Shown here piece by piece: positions 23,130 through 30,715 of a DNA stretch of 64,000 nucleotides. Position numbers and translations under genes: made by a program. The DNA is from Halieaceae bacterium (GTDB lineage Bacteria; Pseudomonadota; Gammaproteobacteria; Pseudomonadales; Halieaceae). The notes beneath the pieces were generated by a model. It was given only the letters and a program-made list of their open reading frames with translations. It did not search any database and had not been told where the DNA came from. Where the stretch lies: the NCBI GenBank assembly GCA_902547755.1, contig CACCPA010000001.1:124001-188000 (forward strand), given 5' to 3'. Positions within the stretch are counted from its first letter, which is position 1. Every line of letters starts with the position of its first letter.

Positions 23130-23672
23130 TTACTCCCCGCCGACGGTTACCTGGTCGATGAGGTTGCGCAACTCGTCGCTGTCGGGACCTACACTTGATC
23201 CAAATTTAGCGACTACTTCACCGTCTCCTGAGACTACGTACTTGTTGAAGTTCCAACGTGGGTAACCCTGTGCTTCTCCCAGACCCTTGAAGACAGGGTT
23301 TGCATTGCCGCCGCGCACCGACGTCGTTGCCATGACTGGGAATGAGACGTCGTACTTCTCAAAACACACGGTTGCCGCATCAGCCTCGTCGTTTTCTTCT
23401 TGGAAGAAATCGTCCGACGAAAAGCCAACCACAGCAAGACCTTTGTCCTTGTACTCTTGATGCAGGGATTCAAGGCCGGAAAACTGAGATGTGTAGCCGC
23501 AGTTACTGGCTGTATTCACGATCAGCATCGGCTTGCCAGCATAGCTTTCGCAAAAATTGATGGTCTCTTTAGAGCTCAGCTTGCGCATCTCCGTATCGAG
23601 AAACTCGGGGCATGCGACGGCTCCGCTCGAGAGACCGAGACCTGCGATGAGTGCAATAACGTTGTTTTTCAT
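23130..23672 (-). CDS. Glutathione peroxidase family protein, exported
   Basis: A 180-residue thiol peroxidase of the GPx family, reducing hydrogen peroxide or lipid peroxides. MKNNVIALIAGLGLSSGAVAC is a signal sequence, so the enzyme is probably periplasmic. The peroxidatic Cys is in VNTASNCGYTSQF, followed by GFSSDDFFQEE in place of the usual CNQF and by the WNFNKYVV motif. An upstream in-frame ATG at 23696 would add eight residues, but ATG 23672 gives a normal signal peptide. Since Cys replaces selenocysteine, thioredoxin is a more likely reductant than glutathione (family knowledge). Confidence 0.88.
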   Translation of the reverse strand: MKNNVIALIAGLGLSSGAVACPEFLDTEMRKLSSKETINFCESYAGKPMLIVNTASNCGYTSQFSGLESLHQEYKDKGLAVVGFSSDDFFQEENDEADAATVCFEKYDVSFPVMATTSVRGGNANPVFKGLGEAQGYPRWNFNKYVVSGDGEVVAKFGSSVGPDSDELRNLIDQVTVGGE

Positions 23673-23781
23673 GGGGGACCCCCTTAGTGATGTCAAAGAA
23701 GTATAAGCAAAATACTGAACTTTGGATTAATCGCACGGGAGAGCGTCGCGTAGCTGTCCACCTAGCATGCAGTGCAGGACT

Positions 23782-27158: not shown

Positions 27159-27185
27159 AAAAAGAGGCGCGAGGCGCCTCTTTTT
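27159..27185. terminator. Bidirectional rho-independent terminator
   Basis: Stem GAGGCGC-GAG-GCGCCTC with an A-tract on the left and T5 on the right, between the plus-strand FAD oxidoreductase gene and the minus-strand DUF3501 gene. Confidence 0.9.
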
Positions 27186-27207: not shown

Positions 27208-27804
27208 TCAGTGAGATACGAGAACTAAGTCCTTGGTCAACGCATCGCGTGTTGTCTGAGCTACTTCAAAACGTGCGATTGGGTATGCCGCGTGCTCGAT
27301 GCTCGCAAAAAGCTTGGCACCGTCTTTCAGAGCTGCGATTTGCTCACCGGATAGCTCGAATCGCATGAAGTGGACGGCCGAGGTTTTTTCCTCGGTTTCG
27401 CGCTCCAAGTCTTCGTCGGCAATGACTTGCGCGACGCCATGACCCTCGATTTCGAGGTTGATGCAGTTCTCTATGCCACGCATTTCGCGGAGCCGCTCGG
27501 CTCTCACTACAGGATCGCCGAACTCGATCATGAACGTCGCTTTCCAATTGGTTCCATCTGGAATTAGAGGATTGTATGCGGCGAGCTCCTCCTCAATACC
27601 AGCGACATCGAATACCTTCTCGATACGGAGCATTTCCTGAATCTGGTAGCGAATCGTGAGCGCATCTTCGAAATAGATGCGTGCATTGTCGCCCAGCGAT
27701 AGCTGGCGATTCTTCTTATGCGCAAGTACCTCAGCACGAAAGTTATCGCGTTGCTCTGAGTATTGCTCTAACGACCAGAGGTCGCTTCGGGTCAGATGTG
27801 ACAT
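27208..27804 (-). CDS. DUF3501 family protein
   Basis: A 198-residue soluble protein recognised as DUF3501 by its N-terminal SDLWSLEQYSEQRDNFRAEV and the MRFELSGEQIAALKDGAKL stretch near the C-terminus. No catalytic motif, signal peptide or membrane helix is visible, and there are several conserved acidic patches. It lies 13 bases downstream of the Fe-S protein gene and is the last gene of the rubrerythrin cassette. In other proteobacteria DUF3501 genes also accompany this Fe-S protein and rubrerythrin (established association). A role in the same peroxide-related electron pathway is inferred; its biochemistry is unknown. Confidence 0.88.
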   Translation of the reverse strand: MSHLTRSDLWSLEQYSEQRDNFRAEVLAHKKNRQLSLGDNARIYFEDALTIRYQIQEMLRIEKVFDVAGIEEELAAYNPLIPDGTNWKATFMIEFGDPVVRAERLREMRGIENCINLEIEGHGVAQVIADEDLERETEEKTSAVHFMRFELSGEQIAALKDGAKLFASIEHAAYPIARFEVAQTTRDALTKDLVLVSH

Positions 27805-27817
27805 GTCACTCTCCTTG

Positions 27818-29146
27818 TTATCTAAGGCCGTAAGCTATGCGCAGCAACGTCATGGGGTGTTGTGCACTGTCCACCCCGTCTGCGAGGTTGGCAATGTGTT
27901 CTCCGGCCATGGGGCAGTCTGAAATAAAATGATCGGGCTTCTGGTCGTTAACCTTCCGGACCGTTGGTCGCGCGATTTTAACGGACTTGTCGCGGGTTTC
28001 CTTTTTTACAGCATAGGTTCCGTCATGCCCCGAGCATCGCTCGTGTGCGACAATTGTTGTTTCTTCGATGAGCGAGAGAATATCGCGCGTTTTGAGCCCA
28101 ATGTTCTGAACTCGCTGATGGCAGGCCACTTGGTAGGCGATGTTGCCGAGACTCTCAGCGAAATTCGTTTTAAGTGCTGCGCCCTTGTGGCGCATCCATA
28201 GATACTCGAATGGATCATAAAAAGCGGCCTTGACCTTTTCCACATCCGGATCGTCTGGGAAGAGCAAAGGTAACTCCTGCTTATACATCAGTACACACGA
28301 AGGAATTGGCGCTGTGAGGTCGTATCCTTGATCTACCAGGCTTGCGAGCAGCGGGATATTGGCTTCCTTCAATGCTTCTACGGCGTCCAGATCACCTAGC
28401 TCGAGCTTTGGCATGCCACAACACTTCTCCTTAGGAATCACGTCAATGCTCACGTCGTTGTGCTGGAAGACCTTAATGAAATCTTCGCCGATAGAAGGAC
28501 TGCTGTAATTACCGTAGCAGGTCGCGTAGAGCGCAAGCTTGCCCTTGGTGGCGCCAACCGGTGTTGCTTCGATGTCCCTAATCAACTTTTTGGCCCGCTT
28601 GATTAACGTGTTTCGGTGAATCTCAGGTAAAGGTGCCTCGGCCGCGATATCGAACGTACTCTCTAAGGCCTTTCTAAAAGCCCCATTGTTGTTGAGTGCA
28701 TTCGCCGTTACGTCTACGAGTGGGATCATCGATATTCCGCTCATCAGCGCATCGGTTGATGTCAGGACCTTATCGCGGAGTTTTGCTCCTTTCGTTTTGA
28801 AGTTTTGAGCTTTTGCTCGCAGCATCAAGTGTGGGAAGTCGACGTTAAATTCGTGCGGTGGAACGTAGGGGCACTTTGTGAGGTAGCAAAGGTCGCACAT
28901 ATAGCACTGATCGACGACCTTGTCGTAATCGTCGAGTGCAACCCCATCGACCTCGAGCGTTTCAGACTCGTCGATAAGGTCAAACAGGGTAGGGAACGAG
29001 TCACATAGGCTGACACAACGTCTGCAGCCGTGACAGACATCGTAGACACGGGCAAGCTCATCATTGAGCGAGTCACGGTCCCAAAACGCTTCCGTTTTCC
29101 ATTCTATCGGGTGACGAGTGGGTGCGTCGACGCTACCTTCGCGCAT
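27818..29146 (-). CDS. HdrD/GlpC-like Fe-S electron-transfer protein
   Basis: A 442-residue Fe-S protein. The N-terminal part has two ferredoxin-like [4Fe-4S] sites: C38, C41, C44, C48 in CHGCRRCVSLC, and C81, C84, C87, C92 in CYMCDLCYLTKCP. The second has four residues, not three, before the last Cys. The C-terminal half has two CCG-type domains: one with CYGNY and EKCCGMPKLELGD, the other with ACHQRV and ERCSGHDGTY, where CSG replaces CCG. No membrane segment is obvious. It sits between rubrerythrin (about 80 bases upstream) and DUF3501. An electron-transfer role toward rubrerythrin is plausible; its donor is not visible here. Confidence 0.87.
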   Translation of the reverse strand: MREGSVDAPTRHPIEWKTEAFWDRDSLNDELARVYDVCHGCRRCVSLCDSFPTLFDLIDESETLEVDGVALDDYDKVVDQCYMCDLCYLTKCPYVPPHEFNVDFPHLMLRAKAQNFKTKGAKLRDKVLTSTDALMSGISMIPLVDVTANALNNNGAFRKALESTFDIAAEAPLPEIHRNTLIKRAKKLIRDIEATPVGATKGKLALYATCYGNYSSPSIGEDFIKVFQHNDVSIDVIPKEKCCGMPKLELGDLDAVEALKEANIPLLASLVDQGYDLTAPIPSCVLMYKQELPLLFPDDPDVEKVKAAFYDPFEYLWMRHKGAALKTNFAESLGNIAYQVACHQRVQNIGLKTRDILSLIEETTIVAHERCSGHDGTYAVKKETRDKSVKIARPTVRKVNDQKPDHFISDCPMAGEHIANLADGVDSAQHPMTLLRIAYGLR

Positions 29147-29225
29147 GTGCTATTGCCTCTGCTTAAAGTGGTTTGAACCAAAAGGGGGGACCAAAAGTCC
29201 CCCCAGAACTCAAGTAGACCCGGAC

Positions 29226-29645
29226 TTAGGCGTCGAGATTGTCGAGTGCTTTCTGGAAACGATTCGCGTGGCTACGCTCTGCTTTTGCCAGTGTTTCGAA
29301 CCAATCTGCGATTTCATCAAAATCTTCGTCGCGCGCTGTTTTGGCCATGCCTGGGTACATGTCAGTGTACTCGTGGGTCTCGCCAGCGATTGATGCTTCA
29401 AGGTTCTTAACAGTGTCGCCCATTGGTAAGCCAGTGGCAGGATCGCCTACAGCTTCAAGGTACTCAAGGTGGCCATGAGCGTGGCCAGTCTCACCTTCCG
29501 CCGTTGAGCGGAAAACGGCTGCTACGTCGTTATAGCCTTCTACGTCAGCCTTTGAGGCGAAGTAGAGGTAACGGCGATTTGCTTGAGACTCACCTGCAAA
29601 GGCGTCCTTCAGGTTCTGTTCGGTTTGGCTACCTTTCAGTTCCAT
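29226..29645 (-). CDS. Rubrerythrin without a rubredoxin domain
   Basis: A 139-residue ferritin-like diiron protein. Iron ligands are recognisable in [41 protein letters not shown] and [12 protein letters not shown]. The C-terminal rubredoxin domain of classical rubrerythrins, which brings electrons to the diiron site, is absent: the protein ends at KALDNLDA. A separate electron donor is therefore needed, and the Fe-S protein encoded next is the obvious candidate. It should act as a cytosolic hydrogen peroxide reductase. It is divergent from an OxyR gene, so peroxide induction is likely. First gene of a three-gene operon. Confidence 0.92.
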
Positions 29646-29815
29646 TGCTTATTACTCCATTGTTGATCGTATGACATCATGACGCCGCCGACTCACCGGC
29701 AGCACATATACTATACCGTCTTCGTGTAAGAATGGTTCCAAAAAAAGCTGGCAAAACCAATCGATTTTTCCGATCGTATATAAGACAAATATGCGACAAG
29801 ATCGATGGAGCCGCT

Positions 29816-30715
29816 GTGTCACGCCAACCCACCTTAAAACAGCTGAAGTACCTGTGTGCTGTTGCGGAGCATCAGCATTTTGGGCAAGCGGCCAAGGCAT
29901 GCCATGTCAGTCAGAGCACCTTAAGTGCCTCGATTGTTGAGCTGGAGGATGTCCTTTCGGCGAGCCTCGTTGAGCGGAATAATCGCTCGGTACTGCTGAC
30001 AGCTCTCGGAAACGAGGTGGTGGCACGTGCTCGTGCAGTTCTGACCGACGTAGACGACGTGGTCGCTCTGTGTGAGGCTTCCAGAGAACCCTTTCAGGGG
30101 ACCATCCGACTGGGTGTAATCCCCACGATTGCCCCCTTTGTGCTTCCGAAGATGTTAAAAGCGCTGCGCACGGAACATCCAATTTGTAAGATGTTTGTGC
30201 GAGAGGACCTTTCTCACGCGCTGGTTAACGCGCTACAACTCGGAGAGCTCGATGTACTGTTACTGGCCTTACCTTTTCCTACAGAACACACCGATACCAT
30301 TGCATTGTTCGAAGATCCGTTTTATCTCGCGACACTCCCTAACTCGAGGCTGGCTCTCAGTCAAAAGCTAAGGACGAAAGATCTTCATCGTGCTGAGATG
30401 TTGCTTCTGGAAGAGGGGCACTGCCTTCGGGATCATGCACTTGAGGCCTGCAAGCTGAGGGAGAAAGATGTCATCGTGCCGTATCAAGCGACCAGTCTTA
30501 CAACGATTGTACAAATGGTTGCCAATGGCATCGGCACCACGTTGCTGCCCAAGATGGCAACCGATGCGGGCATTGCCGAAGGTACGGATCTAGTGCTTCG
30601 TCCGTTTGATGAGCCCGATGTGGGGCGACAGATAGGTTTGATGTGGCGAAAAAAAACGCCCCGGAAGCATGAGTTCAATTTGCTCGGAGCGTTTATTCAG
30701 TCTTGCCTGAATTAA
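29816..30715 (+). CDS. oxyR: OxyR hydrogen-peroxide-sensing LysR regulator
   Basis: A 299-residue LysR regulator. LKQLKYLCAVAEHQHFGQAAKACHVSQSTLSASI is the helix-turn-helix. The redox switch is preserved: EEGHCLRDHALEAC has the two Cys nine residues apart (C203, C212), as in E. coli C199/C208. GTTLLPKMA near the end also matches OxyR. Start GTG 29816 has GGAG five bases upstream. An in-frame ATG at 29732 would add 28 residues with no family counterpart, so I reject it. Divergent from rubrerythrin. No full OxyR box could be picked out by eye in the shared promoter region. Confidence 0.92.
   Translation: MSRQPTLKQLKYLCAVAEHQHFGQAAKACHVSQSTLSASIVELEDVLSASLVERNNRSVLLTALGNEVVARARAVLTDVDDVVALCEASREPFQGTIRLGVIPTIAPFVLPKMLKALRTEHPICKMFVREDLSHALVNALQLGELDVLLLALPFPTEHTDTIALFEDPFYLATLPNSRLALSQKLRTKDLHRAEMLLLEEGHCLRDHALEACKLREKDVIVPYQATSLTTIVQMVANGIGTTLLPKMATDAGIAEGTDLVLRPFDEPDVGRQIGLMWRKKTPRKHEFNLLGAFIQSCLN

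Follow-up and report, generated by a model that had tools for sequence, protein, structure and literature searches.

A rubrerythrin, an iron-sulfur protein and a DUF3501 protein as a probable peroxide-destroying unit beside an OxyR-like regulator in a Halieaceae bacterium

From what donor does a rubrerythrin that carries no rubredoxin domain receive its electrons, and what is the role of the DUF3501 protein that accompanies it? Both the electron source of such rubrerythrins in aerobes and the role of DUF3501 have stood as published questions since 2016 (PMC5114695). The questions are raised again by a locus in a stretch of 64,000 nucleotides, here called the window, from a Halieaceae bacterium (assembly GCA_902547755.1, contig CACCPA010000001.1, positions 124,001 to 188,000), whose genome assembly is 2.09 Mb long and 72% complete. 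In this window the genes for a rubrerythrin (RBR, gene rbr), an iron-sulfur (Fe-S) protein known as RFO and a DUF3501 protein are consecutive on the minus strand and an OxyR-like gene diverges from them on the plus strand; all four genes reported in an earlier note on this DNA were confirmed. The trio is probably used by air-living bacteria to destroy hydrogen peroxide, and we favor, with moderate confidence, the explanation that it forms a peroxide reductase with three components, belonging to the aerobic rubrerythrin type already described and having a dedicated Fe-S reductase, a cofactor-free adaptor and peroxide-induced expression. The trio and this hypothesis are already known; what is new, as far as we have searched, is the fixed remodelling of the RFO cysteines, the strict co-occurrence of the three genes over whole genomes and a regulator-plus-palindrome switch in Halieaceae. 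The features of the locus are the following:

27208..27804, minus strand: DUF3501 protein gene (198 aa; PF12007, 219.6 bits against a cut-off of 25)
27818..29146, minus strand: RFO gene, encoding a GlpC-like Fe-S protein (442 aa, 15 conserved cysteines; PF02754)
29184..29204, minus strand: terminator-like hairpin in the rbr-RFO gap, from a terminator scan of the region
29226..29645, minus strand: rbr, single-domain rubrerythrin of the aerobic type (139 aa; PF02915, 103.4 bits)
29710..29715, minus strand: putative -10-like element TATAGT of the rbr promoter, from reading the sequence
29760..29774, no strand: palindrome ATCG-N7-CGAT, putative operator of the OxyR-like regulator (exact in 17 of 23 linked loci)
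29816..30715, plus strand: OxyR-like LysR regulator, likely start GTG 29816 (PF00126 and PF03466)
27164..27181, no strand: GC-rich inverted repeat with a T run after it, 3' of the DUF3501 gene, read from the sequence

At an E-value of 0.001, Pfam matched the window's RBR only to Rubrerythrin (PF02915) and Ferritin (PF00210), and no rubredoxin domain was found in it. Seven residues that we take to be the diiron ligands (E19, E52, H55, E89, E92, E123 and H126) are invariant in 17 RBR sequences. The nearest solved chains are 9ONM and 4DI0, followed by sulerythrin 1J30, the scores being 255 bits with 4DI0 of Burkholderia and 173 bits with 1J30. Since both of these are counted as members of the aerobic-type group (PMC5114695), the window's protein can be assigned to it from its sequence. 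The adjacent gene of the DUF3501 family (PF12007), and the adjoining RFO, with a CCG domain and with GlpC as its nearest relative, are likewise those of the aerobic-type system, which was described by Cardenas, Quatrini and Holmes (2016, PMC5114695) with the same three families, the same co-localization and RFO-DUF3501 fusions. These authors had already proposed RFO as a replacement for the rubredoxin domain and as electron donor, so that the earlier note, in naming the Fe-S protein the natural candidate donor and in holding the gene association to be known and the electron route and the DUF3501 function to be unsettled, agrees with the published view. The window differs by its divergent OxyR-like regulator with its own type of palindrome; a remodelling of the RFO cysteines is not mentioned in the part of that report available to us. 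The same trio is also encoded in some protists, with predicted mitochondrial targeting (PMC7050145).

Over whole genomes the three genes are found together or not at all. Among 458 distinct genomes 59 have all three and none has only one or two, which is stronger than the co-occurrence that the earlier note had proposed to look for. With score limits for RBR and RFO that were chosen after the gaps in the scores had been seen, DUF3501 (35 of 61 genomes), RBR of at least 285 bits (35 of 61, with one further weak match of 130 bits in genome G044) and RFO above 200 bits (35 of 61, the next match having 67 bits and the RFO of G040 being split over two frames) mark the identical 35 genomes of the family. 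The phylum set of 398 genomes has only G000 in common with the family set; the profile searches for RBR and RFO scored only part of its first-look candidates, and the RFO search was restricted to E 1e-40. Here DUF3501, RBR of at least 279 bits (next match 183) and RFO of at least 639 bits (next match 181) each occur in 25 genomes, again the identical ones. Carriers and non-carriers coexist in the genera g2, g5, g6, g13 and g14, where the non-carriers are 88% and 60% complete in g5 and 96% or more complete in the other four. In three genomes of one genus (G421, G307 and G417) we observed intermediate RBR matches of 179-183 bits in open frames of 149-204 aa; none of the three is in the DUF3501 or RFO match lists of the phylum search.

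The order RBR-RFO-DUF3501 is kept in 58 of 58 loci, one from each other carrier genome (the RFO gene of locus L063 being split over two frames), and the arrangement is therefore beyond chance. Among the best 80 of at least 589 further genome-contig loci, 66 have all three genes in order and 10 are cut by a contig end, while in four the contig continues and RBR (three loci) or RFO (one locus) is absent (L160, L172, L179 and L189; in L172 the stretch before RFO is partly masked). Because the absent gene was present elsewhere in the same genome in all four cases, the parts appear to go together even when unlinked. A fused RFO-DUF3501 protein was seen in 2 of the 80 loci, which belong to the 66 in order and are both from metagenome-assembled genomes of Nitrosomonas. 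A mobile origin of the trio was considered and rejected: DUF3501 was found in 0 of 50,697 phage records and, among 72,556 plasmid records, in only 4, all of them non-mobilizable Burkholderia replicons of 2.4-3.5 Mb.

The cysteine pattern of RFO, tabulated over 133 sequences of sufficient length with the window's included, is equally constant. Fifteen cysteines are invariant: eight in two ferredoxin-type sites (Cys 38, 41, 44, 48 and 81, 84, 87, 92; 133/133), four in the first CCG domain (210, 242, 243 and 284) and three in the second (342, 371 and 411; 133/133). The fifth cysteine of the first CCG domain occurs in none, residue 287 being Met in 130 sequences and Gln in 3, and around the second domain H343, G373 and H374 are present in all and S372 in 132. 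Pfam detects a single CCG stretch in the window's RFO, at residues 205-287, and the second, which has lost some of its cysteines, is recognizable through its alignment with GlpC; thus the two ferredoxin sites claimed in the earlier note stand, and its two CCG domains have to be amended to one of them being remodelled. The name HdrD-like given there does not survive. HdrD and HdrB possess two CCG motifs of five cysteines each for non-cubane clusters, a pair that was not found in any of the 133 RFO sequences, which have four and three; since the second domain retains only three, RFO is GlpC-like with a remodelled second site.

The best NCBIfam models for RFO are indeed those of GlpC (PRK11168, 207.7 of 278 bits; TIGR03379, 126.9 of 279.9 bits), neither curated cut-off being reached. 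The GlpC of Escherichia coli, 25% identical, likewise has two ferredoxin-type four-cysteine motifs followed by two CCG domains, the first of these with four cysteines and without the fifth; in the second domain, however, GlpC keeps CCG and CxxC, whereas the window's RFO has CSGH and CxxA, and the two cysteines are missing uniformly from the 133 sequences. The predicted model of RFO (predicted local distance difference test, pLDDT, 89.5; predicted template modelling score, pTM, 0.90) has LutA as its first match at E 0.001 (entry 9A6L, which is itself an integrative model), and the only others at that limit are six HdrB chains. From this pattern we infer that the remodelled site may bind a cluster held by three cysteines and one histidine. 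The literature that we covered on the aerobic-type rubrerythrin, OxyR and GlpC, supplements aside, contained no description of the remodelling.

For the third protein, which the earlier note termed undescribed, a solved relative exists. The AlphaFold2 model of the DUF3501 protein (pLDDT 93.1, pTM 0.87) has one Foldseek match in the PDB at E 0.001, the Burkholderia pseudomallei protein of unknown function 3FJV (template modelling score, TM, 0.86); the second-ranked match falls to E 0.017 and TM 0.20, and the plant galactan synthase entries 8D3T and 8D3Z, with probabilities of 0.85-0.90, have a TM of 0.30 or less. Ten residues are invariant among 139 sequences (F45, E46, Q54, E57, E62, E73, R101, D132, R135 and K140). 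The highest cysteine column reaches 19.4%, and because a conserved cysteine is thus absent a thiol or Fe-S role is unlikely. The simplest reading, given that DUF3501 accompanies RBR even where RFO is lacking and is fused to RFO in the Nitrosomonas genomes, would be that of a cofactor-free adaptor between RBR and RFO. One locus, L189, holds between 2740 and 6582 an OxyR-like gene, a gene presumed to be catalase-like, RBR and DUF3501 in one set without RFO; its genome has an RBR together with RFO at another place.

RBR itself is the most conserved of the three: over 124 loci it has a median pairwise identity of 86.2%, RFO one of 59.3% and DUF3501 one of 56.0%, and in the 5 loci with a ParE-like neighbour, to which this comparison is limited, the medians are 89.1 for RBR, 70.8 for ParE, 68.1 for RFO and 61.3 for DUF3501. 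Such conservation may be a sign of contacts across much of the RBR surface. One cluster unites 103 open frames from 70 loci. Its displayed member lies opposite rbr (for example L171, 2532-3203, minus strand), and we regard the cluster as a by-product of this conserved coding strand and not as a gene.

How is the unit controlled? The regulator keeps GHCLRDHALEAC, with the two cysteines 9 residues apart, and the earlier note's statement that its redox cysteines are intact is borne out. The LysR fold and the spacing of the pair are common to it and to the OxyR of E. coli, to which it is 36% identical; we call it OxyR-like because the cut-off of the NCBIfam OxyR model PRK11151 is not reached (212.6 against 329 bits). 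Its frame opens at 29732 and the only later in-frame start before the helix-turn-helix is GTG 29816, which is the likelier start because aligned relatives such as that of L060 begin there and because the palindrome at 29760-29774 falls inside the extra 5' stretch of the longer frame. This start leaves 170 bases between rbr and oxyR.

Linkage, defined as a divergent OxyR-like gene within 600 bases of rbr, was found in 23 of the 126 loci that show the rbr start (L195 left out): 21 from family carriers, the window included, as well as L119, with the same four-gene layout as the window, and L166. Linkage thus concerns 21 of 35 family carriers as against none of the 24 phylum-sample carriers that lie outside the family, and is a local, not a general, property of the trio; the term OxyR-linked used in the earlier note fits part of the family and does not extend beyond it. 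L079 has only a 35% relative, and six more of the best 80 loci have a LysR relative, 34-42% alike, near the trio in other layouts. Sideroxydans lithotrophicus, a betaproteobacterium, offers a parallel. There an OxyR gene is clustered with RBR, RFO-type and DUF3501 genes as in the window (PMC7852563). In four further genomes of the window's genus and in two g27 genomes the window's regulator has its best match in the linked gene, the next at 1e-20 being only 28-30% alike in the four and 40-41% in the two; G000 contains no second match at this limit.

When all four-base palindromes with spacers of 3-11 were scanned, the only strong one in the linked promoters was ATCG-N7-CGAT, present in 17 of 23 against 0.1 expected from dinucleotide shuffles; with the window excluded it occurs in 16 of 22, where random windows taken from these loci would give 0.43, and four more linked promoters have it with one mismatch. 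None of the 23 contains WTAG-N7-CTAW or the OxyR motif ATAG-N7-CTAT. A tandem OxyR score of at least 12 of 16 was likewise reached in 0 of 23 linked loci and in 32 of 103 others, in which L195 with its artefactual upstream stretch is counted, as compared with 1.6% of shuffles. Within the family alone, 15 of the 21 linked promoters have ATCG, compared with 1 of the 14 unlinked ones (Fisher p 3e-4, relatedness ignored); WTAG is in 0 linked and 5 unlinked promoters. The palindrome of the window is centred some 64 bases upstream of the start that TATAGT would predict, which is the usual place of a LysR activator. The two sigma-70-like sites of the scan (2.4 expected) do not include TATAGT; in the anchored promoters, too, a -10-like element follows the operator at a similar place. 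The OxyR-like regulator appears to recognize a DNA signal that differs slightly from that of OxyR; no statement of an ATCG operator was found in the literature covered, though the ATCG motif was not searched by name.

The 103 unlinked promoters (L195 dropped, L085 with its 162 bases included) contain other signals: TTAG-N7-CTAA in 32 (0.31 expected from random windows, as for the following counts), ATAG-N7-CTAT in 22 (0.18 expected) and ATCG-N7-CGAT in 5 (1.38 expected). The first of these resembles, to our eyes, the PerR or Irr box of the Fur family, and a gene that we take to be Fur-family-like stands around the trio in L108, L170 and L172; together they suggest that the operon may have a second switch, one that answers to peroxide or iron. 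In ATAG-N7-CTAT we see half of the OxyR motif as published (PMC5720770).

In 33 of 123 rbr-RFO gaps there is a terminator-like hairpin after rbr, as against 0.6 expected (stem-plus-T count, mononucleotide shuffles), which suggests that RBR may be made in excess over RFO and DUF3501. It is on this count that the claim rests: the scan of the window's region yielded 5 sites against 4.4 expected, its own hairpin not being significant alone, and the whole rbr-RFO stretch folds no better than its shuffles (z -0.70). The inverted repeat at 27164..27181, not listed by that scan, is a possible end of the transcription unit. Induction by peroxide, as supposed in the earlier note, receives some support from B. 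pseudomallei, where the adjacent genes bpss1837-1839 (hypothetical protein, ferredoxin and rubrerythrin; from order and annotation likely DUF3501, RFO and RBR) rise together after 100 uM H2O2, with fold changes of 3.37, 3.31 and 3.36, called log-transformed in the text, close to the 3.64 of katG (PMC4175613).

In the mechanism that we propose, RBR would act as a diiron peroxidase that turns H2O2, and perhaps organic hydroperoxides, into water. RFO would pass single electrons through its two [4Fe-4S] clusters and the remodelled CCG sites to the diiron centre of RBR, a route standing in for the missing rubredoxin domain, and could itself be reduced by NADPH through FNR or a ferredoxin, by rubredoxin or by the quinone pool. 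DUF3501 would most likely hold RBR and RFO together or help RBR to assemble. A peroxide sensor would switch the unit on, here probably the adjacent OxyR-like protein through ATCG-N7-CGAT, and a leaky terminator after rbr would provide more RBR than RFO and DUF3501. A more specific version, in which the second CCG domain of RFO holds a three-cysteine, one-histidine cluster of raised potential matched to RBR, DUF3501 serves for docking and the Halieaceae use an OxyR-like switch of altered specificity, is tentative and, taken as a whole, unlikely. If true, it would mean a dedicated Fe-S peroxidase complex with a new kind of terminal Fe-S site, possibly fed by quinol. The all-or-none pattern, the two GlpC cysteines that RFO always lacks and the want of conserved cysteines in DUF3501 lead to defined tests of cluster type, complex and operator.

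Several observations weigh against the favored three-component reductase. In the literature covered we found neither electron transfer nor a complex tested directly. When the open reading frames of 138 loci were clustered, none of the 40 largest neighbour clusters was a redox partner such as ferredoxin, FNR or rubredoxin. A scan of three genomes of the genus with the pattern ATCGNWWWNNNCGAT revealed no wider regulon, the 12 further ATCG-N7-CGAT sites inspected, those with AT-rich spacers, all lying inside open frames; the control pattern gave 1-4 matches per strand against 16-22, an enrichment that is not counted since the reversed control contains TAG. In Burkholderia a sigma E mutant exposed to H2O2 had lower levels of the three genes (-1.84, -1.79 and -1.68; PMC4175613), so that OxyR is not the only control there and the peroxide induction depends on sigma E as well. 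All 61 family genomes have a rubredoxin match, which leaves ordinary rubredoxin possible as a donor and led us to reject it as a discriminator of carriers. Finally, ferriperoxin (Fpx) of Hydrogenobacter thermophilus, a single-domain RBR with peroxidase activity whose mutant was unable to grow at 10% O2, is active in vitro with NADPH and FNR without RFO (PMC3317640), the RFO gene of this organism lying apart from the other two (PMC5114695); and among 4461 published genomes 185 have all three genes, 25, the Thermoproteales included, have RBR and DUF3501 without RFO, and two are odd cases (PMC5114695). RFO is hence not needed everywhere.

These facts are the ground of a possible, if unlikely, alternative in which RBR is fed by general carriers (FNR with NADPH, ferredoxin or rubredoxin) and RFO and DUF3501 are factors for the assembly or repair of the diiron site, an arrangement that the all-or-none pattern fits equally well and with which an excess of RBR would agree. 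Yet RFO, with both ferredoxin-type motifs complete and another seven cysteines invariant, seems over-equipped for a loading factor, and the Km of Fpx for H2O2 is 1.6 mM, so that FNR may not be its natural partner (PMC3317640) and a rubrerythrin working fully without the Fe-S protein, which the earlier note would have taken as refutation, is only partly in evidence. The GlpC likeness of RFO suggests instead, as a variant of the favored explanation, a trio that acts as a quinol peroxidase, with RFO as a membrane-associated acceptor from the quinone pool. GlpC is the respiratory subunit of the anaerobic glycerol-3-phosphate dehydrogenase, the diiron potentials of rubrerythrins are high enough for reduction by quinol, and no recurrent neighbour handling NAD(P)H was among the clusters shown; RFO is nonetheless below the GlpC cut-offs and a membrane helix or quinone site in it would be putative, and we consider this variant a little less probable still than general carriers. 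Most improbable is that RFO works on thiols or disulfides like a heterodisulfide reductase and that RBR merely protects it: a weak HdrB profile match (E 0.005) and the HdrB fold matches are outweighed by the three-cysteine second domain, the missing fifth cysteine of the first and a best fold match that is LutA.

The recurrent neighbours among the 40 largest clusters are a presumed ParE/ParC-like pair, other genes that we take to be housekeeping-like, and frames of non-coding appearance. In a single case, L179, which lacks rbr, a gene that we presume to be FNR-like and a glutathione-peroxidase-like gene lie nearby. A glutathione-peroxidase-like protein (PF00255) with a signal-peptide-like start is also encoded in the window at 23130-23696 on the minus strand, 3.5 kb beyond the cassette, and relatives of it occur around the cassette in L088-L091, L119 and L179.

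The RBR profile has the window's rbr as its sole match in its own genome. Two other PF02915 matches of this genome were rejected as rubrerythrins, L118 5830-6447, which looks like and presumably is MiaE, and L117 5704-6810, which looks AcsF-like and which we take to be the AcsF of bacteriochlorophyll synthesis. The latter adjoins, on contig C3 (L117 5704-8313), a gene that we assume to be geranylgeranyl-reductase-like, and the pair suggests that the organism may make bacteriochlorophyll in air and thereby be exposed to photo-oxidative stress.

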